A stretch of 33,434 nt of DNA from Gammaproteobacteria bacterium (GTDB taxonomy: Bacteria; Pseudomonadota; Gammaproteobacteria; SZUA-140), in the NCBI GenBank assembly GCA_026982565.1, contig JALSGV010000008.1, positions 1-33,434 of the forward strand, given 5' to 3'. Within the stretch, counting starts at the first letter, position 1, and every line of letters starts with the position of its first letter. Under the pieces are notes generated by a model. It was not told where the DNA came from, searched no databases, and worked only from the letters and a program-made list of their open reading frames with translations. Made by a program: the position numbers and the translations under genes. Positions 3,370-32,290 of this stretch are shown here, in pieces.

Positions 3370-3652
3370 TATTAACCCGGCAACCACATATATCGTATTC
3401 AGGACTTCAGGCCTGTGCTGGAACAAGGCGCGGTGCGCAGGCAATGGAATTCCATTGGCAAGCGCCGCAACGCCATGCCGGCGCAGGCCTGAAGTCCCTA
3501 ACAGATTGAAATCAAAGGACAGGCCATTGCGTGCCAGCCCGCTGACTGCGTTGGCGAAATTTGCTGTAGAATGACTACAGCGGCATTTCGCTGCCTTGCA
3601 GCGAACCGGCACGCAATGGCTGAATACGATATATGTGGTTGCCGGGTTAATA
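3370..3652 (+). mobile_element. 283-bp MITE-like inverted-repeat element, copy A
   Basis: The ends are perfect inverted repeats. The left arm is 3370-3402 (TATTAACCCGGCAAC... to ...CGTATTCAG) and the right arm 3620-3652; the match continues three bases outward, giving 36 bp in this copy. Inside are two further long inverted repeats: 3403-3497 (arms GACTTCAGGCCTG / CAGGCCTGAAGTC) and about 3524-3619 (arms CCATTGCGTGCC / GGCACGCAATGG). They are separated by a ~26-nt linker starting CCTAACAGATTG. The whole would fold as a three-armed cloverleaf. A second copy lies inverted at 21965-22248. Each copy has TA immediately outside TTAACCC...GGGTTAA, which fits a TA target duplication as made by IS630/Tc1-type transposases. 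No coding capacity is credible, so it would be non-autonomous. It lies between the glycosyltransferase start and the VanZ remnant. Confidence 0.85.
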
Positions 3653-18316: not shown

Positions 18317-19594
18317 ATGTTCGACATAAAAAAAACAACCATTGGCGTCATCGGCCTGGGCTACGTCGGTCTCCCTCTGGCCGTGGCATTCGGGAACCGC
18401 TTTCCCACGCTGGGTTTTGATATCAACCGCGCCCGCATTGAAGAGCTGGAGGCAGGGCGCGACAGTTCCCTTGAAGTCAGCAGCACGGAACTCGCCGCAG
18501 TCAAGGATCTCTCATATACCAGAAACCCAGAAGATCTGGCACACTGCAATGTCTATATCGTCACTGTTCCGACGCCTATCGACTCCCACAAGCGGCCGGA
18601 TTTGAGCCCTCTGGTCAGCGCAAGCAAGACAGCAGGGACGATATTAAAACCCAATGACATTGTCATTTTCGAGTCCACCGTCTACCCCGGCTGCACCGAG
18701 GAAGTGTGCGTCCCGATCATGGAGGAGATATCGGGACTTGAATTCAACAAGGACTTCCATGTCGGATACAGTCCCGAACGCATCAATCCGGGCGACAAGG
18801 AAAACCGCCTTACCACCATCGTCAAGGTCACCTCTGGCTCCACGCCCGAATCGGCAGACTTTATCGATGCGCTGTACAGAGAGATCATAGAAGCGGGCAC
18901 CCACAAGGCCAGCAGTATCCGTGTGGCCGAAGCCGCCAAGGTCATCGAAAACACCCAGCGCGATGTCAATATCGCCCTCATCAACGAGCTGGCGCTGATT
19001 TTCAACCGCCTGGACATCGATACCCTGGAGGTGCTGGAAGCCGCCGGCAGCAAGTGGAACTTCCTCCCCTTCCGCCCGGGCCTGGTGGGTGGCCACTGCA
19101 TCGGCGTCGATCCCTACTACCTGACGCACAAGGCCGCGGAGATCGGCTACCACCCAGAGGTGATCCTGGCTGGCCGACGCATCAATGACGGCATGGGGGC
19201 CTACGTGGCCGAGCAGGTGATCAAACTCATGACCCGCGCCCGGATCCAGGTCGTCGACGCCCGTATTTTGATACTGGGACTGACCTTCAAAGAAAACTGC
19301 CCCGACCTGCGCAATACCCGCGTGGTGGATATCATTGAGGAGCTTAAGGGGTACCACGCCCATATCGACATCTATGATCCCTGGGTCAGCCCTGAAGAAG
19401 CTGCGCGTGAGTACCAGGTCGAGCCGATTTCGCAGCCGGCGCAGGGCGCCTATGACGCCGTCATTCTCGCTGTGGCCCATGAACAATTCTGCAACGTGGG
19501 TGCGGCTGGTATCCGCGCCCTGTGCAAACCCAATGCGATCCTCTACGATGTCAAATCCATTCTGCCGGCGGACGAGGTGGATGGGAGATTGTAA
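18317..19594 (+). CDS. tviB: UDP-N-acetylhexosamine 6-dehydrogenase (TviB/WbpO type)
   Basis: This is a 425-aa nucleotide-sugar dehydrogenase of the Vi-antigen TviB (VipA)/WbpO branch, expected to oxidise UDP-GlcNAc or UDP-GalNAc to the uronic acid. NAD motif GLGYVGLP is at 13-20, and [11 protein letters not shown] (119-129) and [13 protein letters not shown] (149-161) follow. The catalytic Cys261 is in [19 protein letters not shown], the form that separates this branch from UDP-glucose dehydrogenases. [17 protein letters not shown] is in the C-terminal domain. It follows ugd by 42 bp. The TAA stop at 19592-19594 is part of a TAATA repeat that flanks the inverted-repeat element immediately downstream. 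The exact substrate (GlcNAc or GalNAc) cannot be fixed from sequence. Confidence 0.9.
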
Positions 19595-19596
19595 TA

Positions 19597-19753
19597 CCTG
19601 GATCCGTGGGTTCAGGGCGGATGCAGAGTGCAAGATATTGGTTTCACAGTGGATTCAAAAAATCTTAGCTTCATCCAAAGGTTAAGTGGGCATTTTTTGA
19701 ACCGCTGTGGAAGCAAGAGCGTGGGCTATGCGCCATGTACCCACGGATTCAGG
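19597..19753. repeat. 157-bp imperfect palindromic element flanked by TAATA direct repeats
   Basis: The ends are inverted repeats: CCTGGATCCGTGGGT at 19597-19611 and ACCCACGGATTCAGG at 19739-19753 (14 of 15 paired). Further in, the arms stay partly complementary (GGATTCAAAAAAT near 19653 against ATTTTTTGAACC near 19695, and CACAGTGG against CCGCTGTGG), so nearly the whole stretch can fold back on itself. TAATA occurs directly on both sides (19592-19596 and 19754-19758), like a 5-bp target duplication, and the left copy includes the tviB stop codon. No coding capacity is credible. It does not resemble the 283-bp element. A degenerate miniature transposable element is the likeliest reading. Confidence 0.6.
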
Positions 19754-19781
19754 TAATAACCAACAAAAGCAGAACTACAGC

Positions 19782-20798: not shown

Positions 20799-20822
20799 GC
20801 TGCGCCCCATTCGGGACGCAGC
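20799..20822 (-). terminator. Intrinsic terminator after fba
   Basis: The stem GCTGCG-x-CCC / GGG-x-CGCAGC has an ATTC loop and one mismatch. On the minus strand it is followed by TCGTTTTTATTT, a good U-tract, so it would end the glycolytic/Calvin operon transcript after fba. On the plus strand the stem lies 6 bp after the epimerase stop but has no clean U-tract. Confidence 0.7.
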
Positions 20823-20833
20823 CCATCTTCTGA

Positions 20834-20857
20834 CTTTCCTCTTTTATCTTTGCTCTT
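20834..20857 (-). repeat. Pyrimidine/purine-rich 24-mer shared with the ahcY-metF spacer
   Basis: The 24 bases here are the exact reverse complement of 32180-32203. Read on the minus strand the core is AAAGATAAAAGAGGAAAG. It lies between the fba stop and the terminator. A related purine-rich sequence also borders the gap-pgk spacer element. Function is unknown. Confidence 0.6.
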
Positions 20858-20867
20858 TCCCTTGAAC

Positions 20868-21932
20868 TCAATTGATGCGGGGGTCCAATTCTCCGCTCTC
20901 ATAACGCTTGTACATGTCTTCCAGGGAAACGGGTTTGATCTTGGAGGCCTGGCCCGCGCAACCAAAAGCTTCATAGCGCGCCTTGCAGATTTCCATCATG
21001 GCCTTGGTGGCTTCCTTGAGAAATTTGCGGGGATCGAAGTTGGCCGGATTCTCGGCGAGATGACGGCGCACTGCTCCCGTAGAGGCCATGCGCAGATCAG
21101 TATCGATATTGACCTTGCGCACACCGTGCTTGATGCCTTCCACGATTTCCTCCACGGGTACGCCATAGGTCTCACCCATGTCGCCGCCATAACTGTTGAT
21201 GATCTTCAGCCAGTCCTGCGGAACCGAAGAGGAGCCATGCATGACCAGATGGGTGTCGGGGATGCGGGCATGAATTTCCTTGATGCGGTCGATGGCCAGG
21301 ATGTCGCCGGTGGGCGGACGGGTGAACTTGTAGGCGCCATGGCTGGTGCCGATGGCGATGGCCAGGGCGTCCACCTTGGTCTTCTTGACGAAGTCAGCGG
21401 CCTCTTCGGGATCCGTCAGCAGTTGATCCATGGACAGCTTGCCTTCCGCGCCATGACCGTCCTCCTCACCCATTTCGCCGGTCTCCAGGGAACCCAGGCA
21501 GCCCAGTTCGCCTTCCACGCTGACGCCGCCGGCATGGGCCATTTTGACGACTTCGCTGGTCACCTCGACGTTATACTCGAAGGTCGAGGGGGTCTTCATG
21601 TCGGCCATCAGGGAGCCATCCATCATTACAGAGGTGAAACCACTCTGAATGGAGCGCAGACAGACCGCCGGCTCGGACCCATGATCCTGATGCATGGCAA
21701 CGGGGATGTGCGGATACATTTCGGTCGCGGCGGTAATCAGGTGCCGCAGAAACGGCTCACCGGCATAGCTGCGCGCGCCGGCTGAACCCTGCATGATGAC
21801 GGGGCTGTCCACCGCATCCGCGGCCTGCATGATGGCATGCACCTGTTCCATGTTGTTGACGTTGAACGCGGGCAGACCGTAGCCATATTCAGCGGCATGG
21901 TCCAGTAACTGGCGCATCGAAATCAGGGCCAT
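20868..21932 (-). CDS. fba: Class II fructose-1,6-bisphosphate aldolase, Calvin-cycle subtype (CbbA-like)
   Basis: This zinc enzyme joins or splits fructose-1,6-bisphosphate (and in the Calvin cycle sedoheptulose-1,7-bisphosphate). The 354-aa length and motifs fit the CbbA-like subtype: [20 protein letters not shown] start, catalytic/metal motif HQDHG (81-85), [40 protein letters not shown] and NIDTDLRMA. The ATG at 21932 has a strong ribosome site (GGAGA, 7 bases away). A longer open frame to 22046 begins inside repeat element copy B, and the extra 38 residues are not part of the family. The element ends only 32 bp before the start codon, so the fba leader lies next to, or is transcribed through, the element. 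It is the last gene of the tkt-gap-pgk-pyk-fba cluster. Confidence 0.96.
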
Positions 21933-21964
21933 AATTATTCTCCTTCCATTTTCATTTATGACAA

Positions 21965-22248
21965 TATTAACCCGGCAACAATATATATCGTATTCAGCCA
22001 TTGCGTGCCGGTTCGCTGCAAGGCGGCGAAAAGCCGCTGTAGTCATTCTACAGCAAGTTTCGCCAACGCAGTCAGCGGGACGGCACGCAATGGCCTGTCT
22101 TTTAATATCAATCTGTTAGGGACTTCAGGCCTGCGCCGGCACGGCGTTGCGGCGCTTGCCAATAGAATCACTATTGCCTGTGCACCGCGCCTTGTTCCAG
22201 CGCAGGCCTGAAGTCCTGAATACGATATATATTGTTGCCGGGTTAATA
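21965..22248 (-). mobile_element. 284-bp MITE-like inverted-repeat element, copy B
   Basis: This is the inverted second copy of the element at 3370-3652, about 93% identical by hand alignment. Terminal inverted repeats 21965-21997 and 22216-22248 match perfectly over 33 bp. The internal hairpins are about 21998-22093 (CCATTGCGTGCC arms) and 22121-22215 (GACTTCAGGCCTG arms). In the terminal stem this copy has GGCAACAATATATATCG where copy A has GGCAACCACATATATCG, and the opposite arm differs correspondingly, so pairing is kept. The small inner stem is CAATAG/CTATTG here and CAATGG/CCATTG in copy A. TA flanks both TTAACCC ends. It is placed between pyk (53 bp away) and fba (32 bp away). Confidence 0.88.
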
Positions 22249-22301
22249 AAACACCTGGCGCTCTTCAGATAGAGGACAATGGGGGCCAGTCCCTCAAGTG
22301 C

Positions 22302-23735
22302 TCAGTAATCCCCTACCCTTACAATCTTCATGACATTTGTCGTCCCATGGATACCCATTAAATCACCTTTTGTGATGATCACCAAATCACCTTCCTCGAC
22401 CGCGCCCTGTTCACGCAGCACATTCAATACGGCGCGGTTGATTTCGACATAATCGGTGCCATTGGGGAAATAAAATGCCTTGGGATAAACGCCGCGATAG
22501 AGCGTCACCTTTCTGCGCGTGGCTTCATGGCGCGTCATGGCATAGATGGGGATGCCGGAACTGATGCGGGACATCCACTGCACGGTGCTTCCCGATTCCG
22601 TCAGGGCCGCAATGGCCTTCACGTTCAGATGATTGGCCGTATACATGGTGGCCATGGCAATGGCCTCATCCACATGATGGAATTCCGTATTCATGCGGTG
22701 CCTGGAAATGATGGCCACTTTCTGTCTTTCCGCGCCGGAACAGATGCGCGCCATGGCCTCGATCACCTTGACGGGGTAGTGCCCCGTCGCCGTCTCGGCC
22801 GACAGCATCACGGCATCCGTACCGTCCAGCACGGCATTGGCCACGTCGAACACCTCGGCGCGGGTGGGAATCTGGTTGTCTATCATGGATTGCATCATCT
22901 GCGTGGCGGTGATGACGACGCGGTTCATGCTGCGCGACAACTGGATCAGGTGCTTCTGCACGCCCGGCAGCTCCGCATCACCGATCTCCACCCCCAGGTC
23001 ACCGCGCGCCACCATGATGGCGTCACTGGCGGCGATGATCTCTTCGATGCCATGCAGGGACTCGGCGCGCTCGATCTTGGCCACCACGCCGCCCTGCCCG
23101 CCGGCCTCGTGCAACAACCGGCGCGCCTCGTTGATATCCGCGGCGTTGCGGGGAAACGAGACGGCGATGTAATCGGCGGAAATCTCCGCCGCGGTGCGGA
23201 TGTCCGCGCGATCCTTGTCGGTAATGGCCGGCGCGGACAGTCCGCCGCCCTGGCGGTTGATGCCCTTGCTGTTGGATAATTCGCCACCCACCTTGACCCG
23301 GCAAGCGATGGTTTCGCCAGAAACATCCTCCACCGCCAGCACGATGGCGCCATCGTCGAGCAACAGGATGTCGCCCGGCTTGACGTCATTGGGAAGCTCC
23401 TTGTAGGTGATGCCGACCCGCTGTTCATCACCATCATTGGCGTCACAGGTGGCGTCAAGCACGAAGCGGTCGCCCTCCTTGAGGAGGACCTTGCCATTGC
23501 GAAATCGTTCGAGACGGATCTTGGGGCCTTGGAGATCGGCGAGCACCCCCACTTCCCTTCCTTCTTCACGGGCGCATTCACGCACCATGTTCACACGGCG
23601 AATATGATCCTCGGCCACGCCGTGAGAGAAGTTGACGCGCACCACGTCGAGTCCGGCGGCAATCATTTCCCTCAGCGTTTCAGGATCATCCGTTGATGGC
23701 CCCAGGGTCGCAACAATTTTCGTTCGTCTTATCAT
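22302..23735 (-). CDS. pyk: Pyruvate kinase
   Basis: This enzyme converts phosphoenolpyruvate and ADP to pyruvate and ATP, the last step of glycolysis. The 477-aa product starts with RRTKIVATLGPSTDDPETL and has VRVNFSHG, the ADLQGPKIR strand, and the catalytic Lys/metal region VAKIERAESLHGIEEIIAAS. MVARGDLGVEIGDAELPGVQ, TATQMMQSMIDNQIPTRAEV and SAETATGHYPVKVIE are also present. The C-terminal allosteric domain is full length (TESGSTVQWMSRISSGIPIY to VVITKGDLMG-like end). AAGGAC precedes the ATG at 23735; the longer frame at 23786 lacks this. It lies between pgk (82 bp upstream) and fba, from which element copy B separates it. The gene content recalls the cbb clusters of autotrophs that also include pyk. 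Confidence 0.97.
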   Translation of the reverse strand: MIRRTKIVATLGPSTDDPETLREMIAAGLDVVRVNFSHGVAEDHIRRVNMVRECAREEGREVGVLADLQGPKIRLERFRNGKVLLKEGDRFVLDATCDANDGDEQRVGITYKELPNDVKPGDILLLDDGAIVLAVEDVSGETIACRVKVGGELSNSKGINRQGGGLSAPAITDKDRADIRTAAEISADYIAVSFPRNAADINEARRLLHEAGGQGGVVAKIERAESLHGIEEIIAASDAIMVARGDLGVEIGDAELPGVQKHLIQLSRSMNRVVITATQMMQSMIDNQIPTRAEVFDVANAVLDGTDAVMLSAETATGHYPVKVIEAMARICSGAERQKVAIISRHRMNTEFHHVDEAIAMATMYTANHLNVKAIAALTESGSTVQWMSRISSGIPIYAMTRHEATRRKVTLYRGVYPKAFYFPNGTDYVEINRAVLNVLREQGAVEEGDLVIITKGDLMGIHGTTNVMKIVRVGDY

Positions 23736-23816
23736 ATAGTCCTTGTCTCGGCTGTCACCTGTCCGGCTCGCCATGCATGCGCACAAGGCGCCTGGCAGGG
23801 ATGCAGCATGATTATA

Positions 23817-24995: not shown

Positions 24996-25035
24996 GGCTT
25001 ACTCCAAAAATTAGTATTCAGCAAAGGAGAAACAA

Positions 25036-26209
<1,174 letters not shown>

Positions 26210-32179: not shown

Positions 32180-32276
32180 AAGAGCAAAGATAAAAGAGGA
32201 AAGAGAAAAGTGAATGCACTTCTTCTCTTTCCTCTTACCTGACCCGCTTTACCCTTTACTCTTTTATCTTTTCTCT
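32180..32276. repeat. Purine/pyrimidine-rich inverted-repeat spacer between ahcY and metF
   Basis: The arms at 32181-32203 and 32254-32276 are complementary at 21 of 23 positions (core AAAGATAAAAGAG). A second, overlapping hairpin spans 32195-32235: a 13-bp stem AGAGGAAAGAGAA/TTCTCTTTCCTCT, then five more pairs around an AATG loop with one bulged C. The left arm shares an exact 24-mer with the spacer after fba. It may act as the ahcY terminator region on the plus strand, although the sequence after the stem is mixed C/T, not a clean U-tract. Confidence 0.6.
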
Positions 32277-32290
32277 TTACTCTGCTTTCT

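Follow-up and report, generated by a model that had tools for sequence, protein, structure and literature searches.

A cloverleaf-forming, MITE-like element of Gammaproteobacteria with a covarying two-hairpin core, probably moved in trans by IS630/Tc1-mariner-family transposases

In bacteria, MITEs are commonly regarded as degenerate copies of insertion sequences (ISs) that are confined to one genome, and the structured types ERIC, Correia and QMITE2 have been described as forming one stem or as having a middle with little structure. The element analysed here resembles those types in being short, gene-less, intergenic, stem-forming and present in high copy number, but no sequence relation to them was found and its cloverleaf of two inverted hairpins is fixed across many families. 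With REP/REPIN elements and their RAYT transposases it shares paired inverted hairpins and high copy number, but it differs from them in having terminal inverted repeats (TIRs) of 30-35 bp, TA flanks and a total length of about 270 bp, and in that the sequences examined carry no GTAG or CGTC tag. IS630-family elements insert at TA, which is duplicated (PMC2170065), and the reference list of that paper includes a title on a preference of IS630 for CTAG. IS630/Tc1-mariner ISs (IS630, ISY100) and the MITEs thought to be derived from them share with our element the TA at both ends, a CTAG target context in lineages whose ends begin with TAG and, in one genome, ends that match those of a resident IS630-family gene. 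Unlike these ISs, the cloverleaf element has no transposase gene, its two-hairpin core is absent from the IS and the two have no more than the outer ~20-24 bp of the TIR in common.

In the window (the whole 33,434-bp stretch of DNA that was analysed), the element is present at 3370-3652 on the plus strand (copy 1; 283 bp when the TA on either side is counted, 100% self-match) and at 21965-22248 on the minus strand (copy 2; 284 bp, 93% identical to copy 1). These are the positions and approximate identity given by a first-pass annotation made from the sequence alone, and terminal-repeat comparison and folding also recovered the perfect 33-bp TIRs and the two internal hairpins of about 95 nt that it had described. 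Copy 1 begins with the left TIR (3370-3402; TATTAACCCGGCAACCACATATATCGTATTCAG), the first TA of which is probably the target duplication, and continues with hairpin 1 (3403-3496), a linker of ~27 nt, given as ~26 nt in the annotation (3497-3523; CCTAACAGATTG..., alignment A1), hairpin 2 (3524-3619; alignment A2), which is the hairpin 1 motif inverted, and the right TIR (3620-3652), which is 100% complementary to the left one. Copy 2, on the opposite strand, consists of the left TIR (22216-22248), hairpin 1 (22121-22215), hairpin 2 (21998-22093) and the right TIR (21965-21997), both TIRs being placed by terminal-repeat comparison. The TIRs are perfect over 33 bp, with complementarity extending to 36 bp in copy 1. 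Hairpin 1 retains the unpaired motifs CAAGGCGC and CAACGC.

On folding, the element forms three arms, of which one is the outer stem and the others are the hairpins, ~94 nt long for hairpin 1 and ~96 nt for hairpin 2. The predicted free energy of copy 1 folded as RNA is −186 kcal/mol, compared with −94 ± 5 for shuffled sequences (z = −18.5), and copy 2 folded as DNA gave z = −18.0. A covariance model of the hairpin (R1) matched hairpin 1 at 3419-3476 (63 bits) and hairpin 2 at 3545-3603 on the minus strand (53 bits) in copy 1, and hairpin 1 at 22141-22199 (67 bits) and hairpin 2 at 22014-22072 (54 bits) in copy 2. Both hairpins of both copies were thus recovered by the covariance-model check that the annotation had proposed, and the next best score in the window was 10 bits. 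Nearly all bases lie in stems and no long ORF is confined to the 283-284 bp. Without a transposase gene, the element is not a member of the IS630/Tc1-mariner group proper; it can be mobilisable like an IS630 element without being one. It does have several of the features by which MITEs are known, namely perfect 33-bp TIRs, a length below ~600 bp without a transposase gene, and many dispersed, near-identical copies.

The genome from which the window comes (G000; a 2.64-Mb draft in 214 contigs, 91% complete) contains 40 matches of at least 170 bp including copy 1, 21 of them complete and 19 partial, and 239 matches to the terminal 15-mer at up to two mismatches, compared with 2 for the reversed control. 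Many copies per genome had been anticipated, and a lack of further copies had been named as an outcome that would speak against the annotation; full-element and end searches found many, both in this genome and in its relatives. The 21 complete copies have a mean pairwise identity of 96%. Most partial copies end at contig ends, and the elements break assemblies, with many contigs ending in one. TA adjoins both ends in all 21 complete copies, as had been noticed for the two in the window, and the bases flanking it are variable, T and A being the commonest before and after. Internal-deletion forms of about 111, 186 and 212 bp were seen among the ends that we inspected. TIR-only palindromes of 38-47 bp with TA ends are also present (contig C24:37815-37861, C42:4431-4470 and C170:33085-33122; loci L056 and L065), and in these the outer stem outlives the loss of both hairpins.

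Nineteen copies in this genome are intergenic or at gene edges, with 12 in co-directional, 5 in divergent and 2 in convergent settings according to a rough ORF-based call. Insertions occur between core metabolic genes: copy 2 sits between genes identified with Pfam as pyruvate kinase (22302-23786, minus strand) and class II fructose-bisphosphate aldolase (20868-21926, minus strand). The orthologous pyk-fba gap in two relatives (G002 and G008) is about 75-87 bp and lacks the element, for which the simplest reading would be that copy 2 inserted after divergence from these relatives; their intergenic sequence is too diverged to yield a base-exact empty site. In a congeneric genome (G001:C130, locus L249), the gap orthologous to window positions 21947-22305 carries a different inverted repeat, CCCTCTCC...GGAGAGGG.

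The hairpin motif was found with different TIRs in other families of the class, and the window element is one lineage within a large superfamily that appears to be undescribed. The hairpin-1 core pattern occurs on at least 100 contigs of GTDB genomes among the matches listed, nearly all with titles from Gamma- or Betaproteobacteria and many from sulfur oxidisers; the taxa among these listed matches include Thiotrichales, Thiohalomonas, Thiodiazotropha, Thioalkalivibrio, Thiobacillus, Salinisphaera and Lysobacteraceae. One further core-pattern match, on a contig labelled Bifidobacterium (L129), has no cloverleaf. R1 matched 126 of 369 sampled gammaproteobacterial genomes (34%; E ≤ 1e-5), 35 of which reach the 15 candidates scored per genome, so that their copy numbers are lower bounds. 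When 20 R1 loci were fetched, a full TIR-flanked cloverleaf was present in 10 by an automatic test and in 3 more by folding, most of the others being cut or altered, so a hairpin match does not always represent a complete element. Viral contigs gave 0 matches to the TIR and core patterns, and plasmid records gave no match to two whole elements and no relevant match to 18 joined TIRs; host sampling in these collections may explain part of both results.

No Rfam family matched the element above the gathering score, and no matching description was found in Rfam or, by sequence or topic, in the literature outside ISfinder and most subscription journals. Within that coverage, the annotation's failure to recognise the family holds, and a match to a described IS-derived or REP/ERIC-type family, which it had said would count against it, did not appear. 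MITEs reported from Thiomargarita (PMC4853749) appear different, having TATAG or 10-bp direct repeats.

Thirty complete elements obtained by automatic extraction are about 245-298 bp long, mostly 262-273 bp, and share a common layout of a TIR of ~30-36 bp, hairpin 1, usually the junction CCCNNNGGG, hairpin 2 with the inverted motif, and the second TIR; superfamily elements with this layout measure about 265-285 bp. The cloverleaf structure is common to almost the whole superfamily and thus not peculiar to G000. The window lineage has lost the CCCNNNGGG mini-hairpin junction of most relatives, and the ~27-nt linker takes its place.

Covariation was assessed with an alignment of 32 sequences and 93 predicted pairs. 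Over these pairs 91.9% of cells are paired. Two-sided changes occur in 83 of the pairs, giving a covariation score of 0.755, compared with 0.199 for shuffled sequences and 0.12-0.14 for slid partners. The claim that almost every base lies in one of three stems, beyond what is seen in ordinary MITEs, is thus strengthened by a three-arm structure that covariation keeps across lineages. Some covariation of the TIR stem would arise in any case, since a transposon needs inverted repeats at its ends, but the two inner hairpins covary too. Most sequences were chosen by the hairpin-1 pattern, which biases the conservation of that core; the conserved letters of hairpin 2 (GTT, CGCCTTGC) and of CCCNNNGGG are free of that bias. 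When hairpin 2 is reverse-complemented, it aligns with hairpin 1 as a single motif, CAAGGCGC...GCAACGC: the element is made of two facing ends, each of the form TIR plus hairpin.

TIR sequences are entirely different between lineages, whereas both hairpins keep conserved motifs. In sequence pairs with TIR identity of at most 30% (217 of 496), hairpin 2 is on average still 43% identical, compared with 26% for shuffled letters, and TIR and core identity correlate overall at 0.71. Most aligned elements keep the total length and a CCCNNNGGG-type junction. The core thus outlasts the TIR, a pattern that TIR swapping and fast TIR co-evolution would fit equally well.

Evidence for recent mobility comes from Candidatus Thiodiazotropha isolate 3502H_Th2 (G057), which has dozens of copies belonging to several TIR families. 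Twenty aligned copies of one of these, family B (TIR CTAGTGTGGTGTAACGTATAAACTG...), have a mean identity of 98.8% (97.4-100%), and further family B copies were listed beyond those aligned; family B is in a recent burst in this genome. Nineteen of the 20 copies lie in a CTAG context (C-TA[B]TA-G). One orthologous site without B was resolved at the sequence level, the only one of its kind, in G055, where AGAGCGCTGGGTTTAGCATG corresponds to CGAGTGC-TA[B]TA-GTATAGGACACTACACTTAGCATG (C-TG-G versus C-TA[B]TA-G). The flanks agree, but with a diverged target base and ~15 additional bp on the filled side, this site supports TA duplication without proving it. In the comparison of empty with filled sites suggested by the annotation, the orthologous sites in G055 (for a family B copy) and in G002 and G008 (for copy 2) lack the element, but none of them is a clean base-exact site. 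Different cloverleaf families are also chained end to end in Thiodiazotropha (L176:5800-6337, L256, L262, L264, L269 and L270), one element being inserted at the CTAG formed by the end of another.

A candidate partner transposase is present in the same G057 genome. Locus L290 encodes a 380-aa IS630-family transposase (NF033545, 4.8e-77; DDE_3, 3.6e-21), the gene for which lies between CTAGTGTGGCGTAACGAATAAA and CTAGTGTGGTGTAACGAATAAA. The bounds of the locus are CTAGTGTGG[C/T]GTAACGAATAAA, and the family B TIR CTAGTGTGGTGTAACGTATAAA matches its two ends at 19 of 20 and 18 of 20 positions, whereas the best matches of 13 other TIRs to this locus reach no more than 11-14 of 20. This IS lacks the cloverleaf hairpins, and its likeness to family B is limited to the outer ~20-24 bp of the TIR. 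Three other IS630 loci (L286 in G083, L289 and L291 in G080) have, at the gene end or beside it, sequences that agree with the local TIR at 15-16 of 20 positions, but these matches are suggestive only, because unrelated TIRs also reach 15-16. An IS630 end region of L286, at about 615-653, contains TATTAACTCGGCAATAG and is 16/20 like the window TIR, which is within chance. IS630 loci in G040, G001 and G033 (L073-L075) and in G079 (L288) have ends that do not match the local element TIR.

DDE_3 (IS630) matches were found in 7 of 18 searched genomes but not in the G000 draft (91% complete), G007 or G034, all of which have many copies. No autonomous element with the TATTAACCCGGCAAC ends of the window lineage was found (TATTAACCCGGCAA ends also occur in the genome of L307); nor was one found around cores without an automatically detected TIR pair, single TIR ends in G000 or TIRs in G057. 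Two loci with widely spaced inverted cores (L122 and L142) looked autonomous, but the genes between the cores are not transposases. The partner of the window lineage may have been lost, missed in the draft or of another family. The annotation's suggestion of an IS630/Tc1-type partner consequently stands at the superfamily level, through the match between L290 and family B in Thiodiazotropha, but not for G000, where neither an IS630 transposase nor a full-length IS with the same ends was found. Seven cloverleaves (L134, L159, L161, L171, L172, L184 and L264) have IS5-like TIRs (GAGCCT..., GGGCTCG..., GGGCGTG..., GGGCCTG...), the first three of which we take to resemble IS5-type ends; to judge from these ends, such elements may have a non-IS630 partner. 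Since a few lineages have such IS5-like TIRs and no clear TA duplication, IS630 may not serve all members.

We consider it probable (roughly 0.8) that the element is a non-autonomous, MITE-like DNA transposon moved in trans by IS630/Tc1-mariner-family transposases. This reading is supported by a resident IS630-family gene with matching ends, by the TA flanks, by the recent bursts and by an orthologous site from which the element is missing, and the insertions follow the IS630/Tc1-mariner target rule (TA in 21 of 21 G000 copies, CTAG in 19 of 20 family B copies). Such mobilisation is well supported by sequence comparison for the Thiodiazotropha lineage; that the window lineage uses the same enzyme family is an extrapolation. 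The transposase would bind the outer ~20-24 bp of each TIR, excise the element and insert it at TA, with duplication of the TA (CTAG in lineages whose ends begin with TAG), the catalytic steps themselves being presumed. The conserved interior consists of two facing copies of one hairpin and would act at the DNA level: the core would fold in single-stranded or supercoiled DNA and join the two ends, or would bind a factor at both.

Once inserted, copies give no indication that their fold is maintained: copy-private mutations in G000 break stems 21 times, compared with 23.5 expected at random. Such neutral-like decay is what a selfish element would show in its dead copies. In six private cells the change is two-sided and compensated, which arm-templated repair or the survival of older variants could explain. 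Together, the symmetry of the element and the neutral decay of its old copies favour a role at the DNA level.

These patterns also bear on whether the element could be a structured RNA or regulatory element (a terminator, mRNA stabiliser or sRNA) that was spread by transposition and kept by the host for its fold. Its very stable fold and strong covariation are what such a role would produce, and copies do lie between genes, copy 2 between the co-directional pyk and fba. However, old copies decay as neutral mutation predicts, Rfam has no match, and convergent gene ends are not preferred in the rough ORF-based call (2 convergent, 12 co-directional, 5 divergent). Moreover, two-sided changes across lineages outnumber one-sided (G-U type) ones about sevenfold (864 cells versus about 120 in sum), a ratio more in keeping with DNA palindromes than with RNA evolving step by step, and a role as host RNA would not explain why hairpin 2 is hairpin 1 inverted. 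Stem decay, the excess of two-sided changes and the gene orientations thus favour selection during transposition, and we regard a host-kept RNA as improbable. Somewhat less improbable, but still unlikely, is an ordinary MITE, that is, an internal-deletion remnant of one IS630-type insertion sequence with an accidentally structured middle. The size, TIRs, TA flanks, absence of genes and many deletion derivatives are all typical of one. Nevertheless, the element is not an internal-deletion copy of the L290 IS, since that IS has no hairpins and shares only the outer TIR. The covariation of the interior and its conservation across lineages whose TIRs are unrelated (hairpin 2 at 43% versus 26% when TIR identity is at most 30%) count strongly against this origin, and the total length and junction kept by most aligned elements also speak against it. 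Least credible of all is a REP/REPIN-like element whose hairpins, in single-stranded DNA, are the substrate of a Y1 (RAYT) transposase. The pair of inverted hairpin units with its short spacer does resemble the REPIN layout, but long TIRs (30-35 bp) flanked by TA are a sign of a DDE enzyme, an IS630 element has matching ends, and no GTAG-tagged REP unit of 20-40 bp occurs in the sequences examined. An open frame resembling the start of a REP-associated (Y1) transposase at the right end of L259, beside a family B copy, had no Pfam support.

A bolder version of trans-mobilisation, which we hold only tentatively and think somewhat doubtful, is that the core is an independent parasitic module derived from no one IS, which has repeatedly changed its TIRs so as to be moved by different transposases, of several IS630 types and perhaps also of IS5 types, with hairpins that would promote transposition or bind a conserved host factor. 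If so, it would be a transposase-flexible satellite common to much of Gammaproteobacteria. About one in three of the sampled gammaproteobacterial genomes carries the covarying architecture of the superfamily, whose ends have meanwhile been rewritten, in one genome at least to match a local transposase. On this evidence, the interior of a MITE-like element would be a functional part under selection.

The window also contains other repeats. A second inverted-repeat element of ~167 bp lies at 19592-19758 (TAATACCTGGATCCGTGGGTTCAGG ... CCCACGGATTCAGGTAATA), and similar ends occur at several other G000 loci and at three Thiodiazotropha loci (L126, L232 and L263). Pyrimidine/purine-rich repeats (CTTTCCCCTTGTATC...), partly in 14-bp tandem, are found at 25028-25204, 20821-20861 and 32180-32281, and recur between genes in both orientations.
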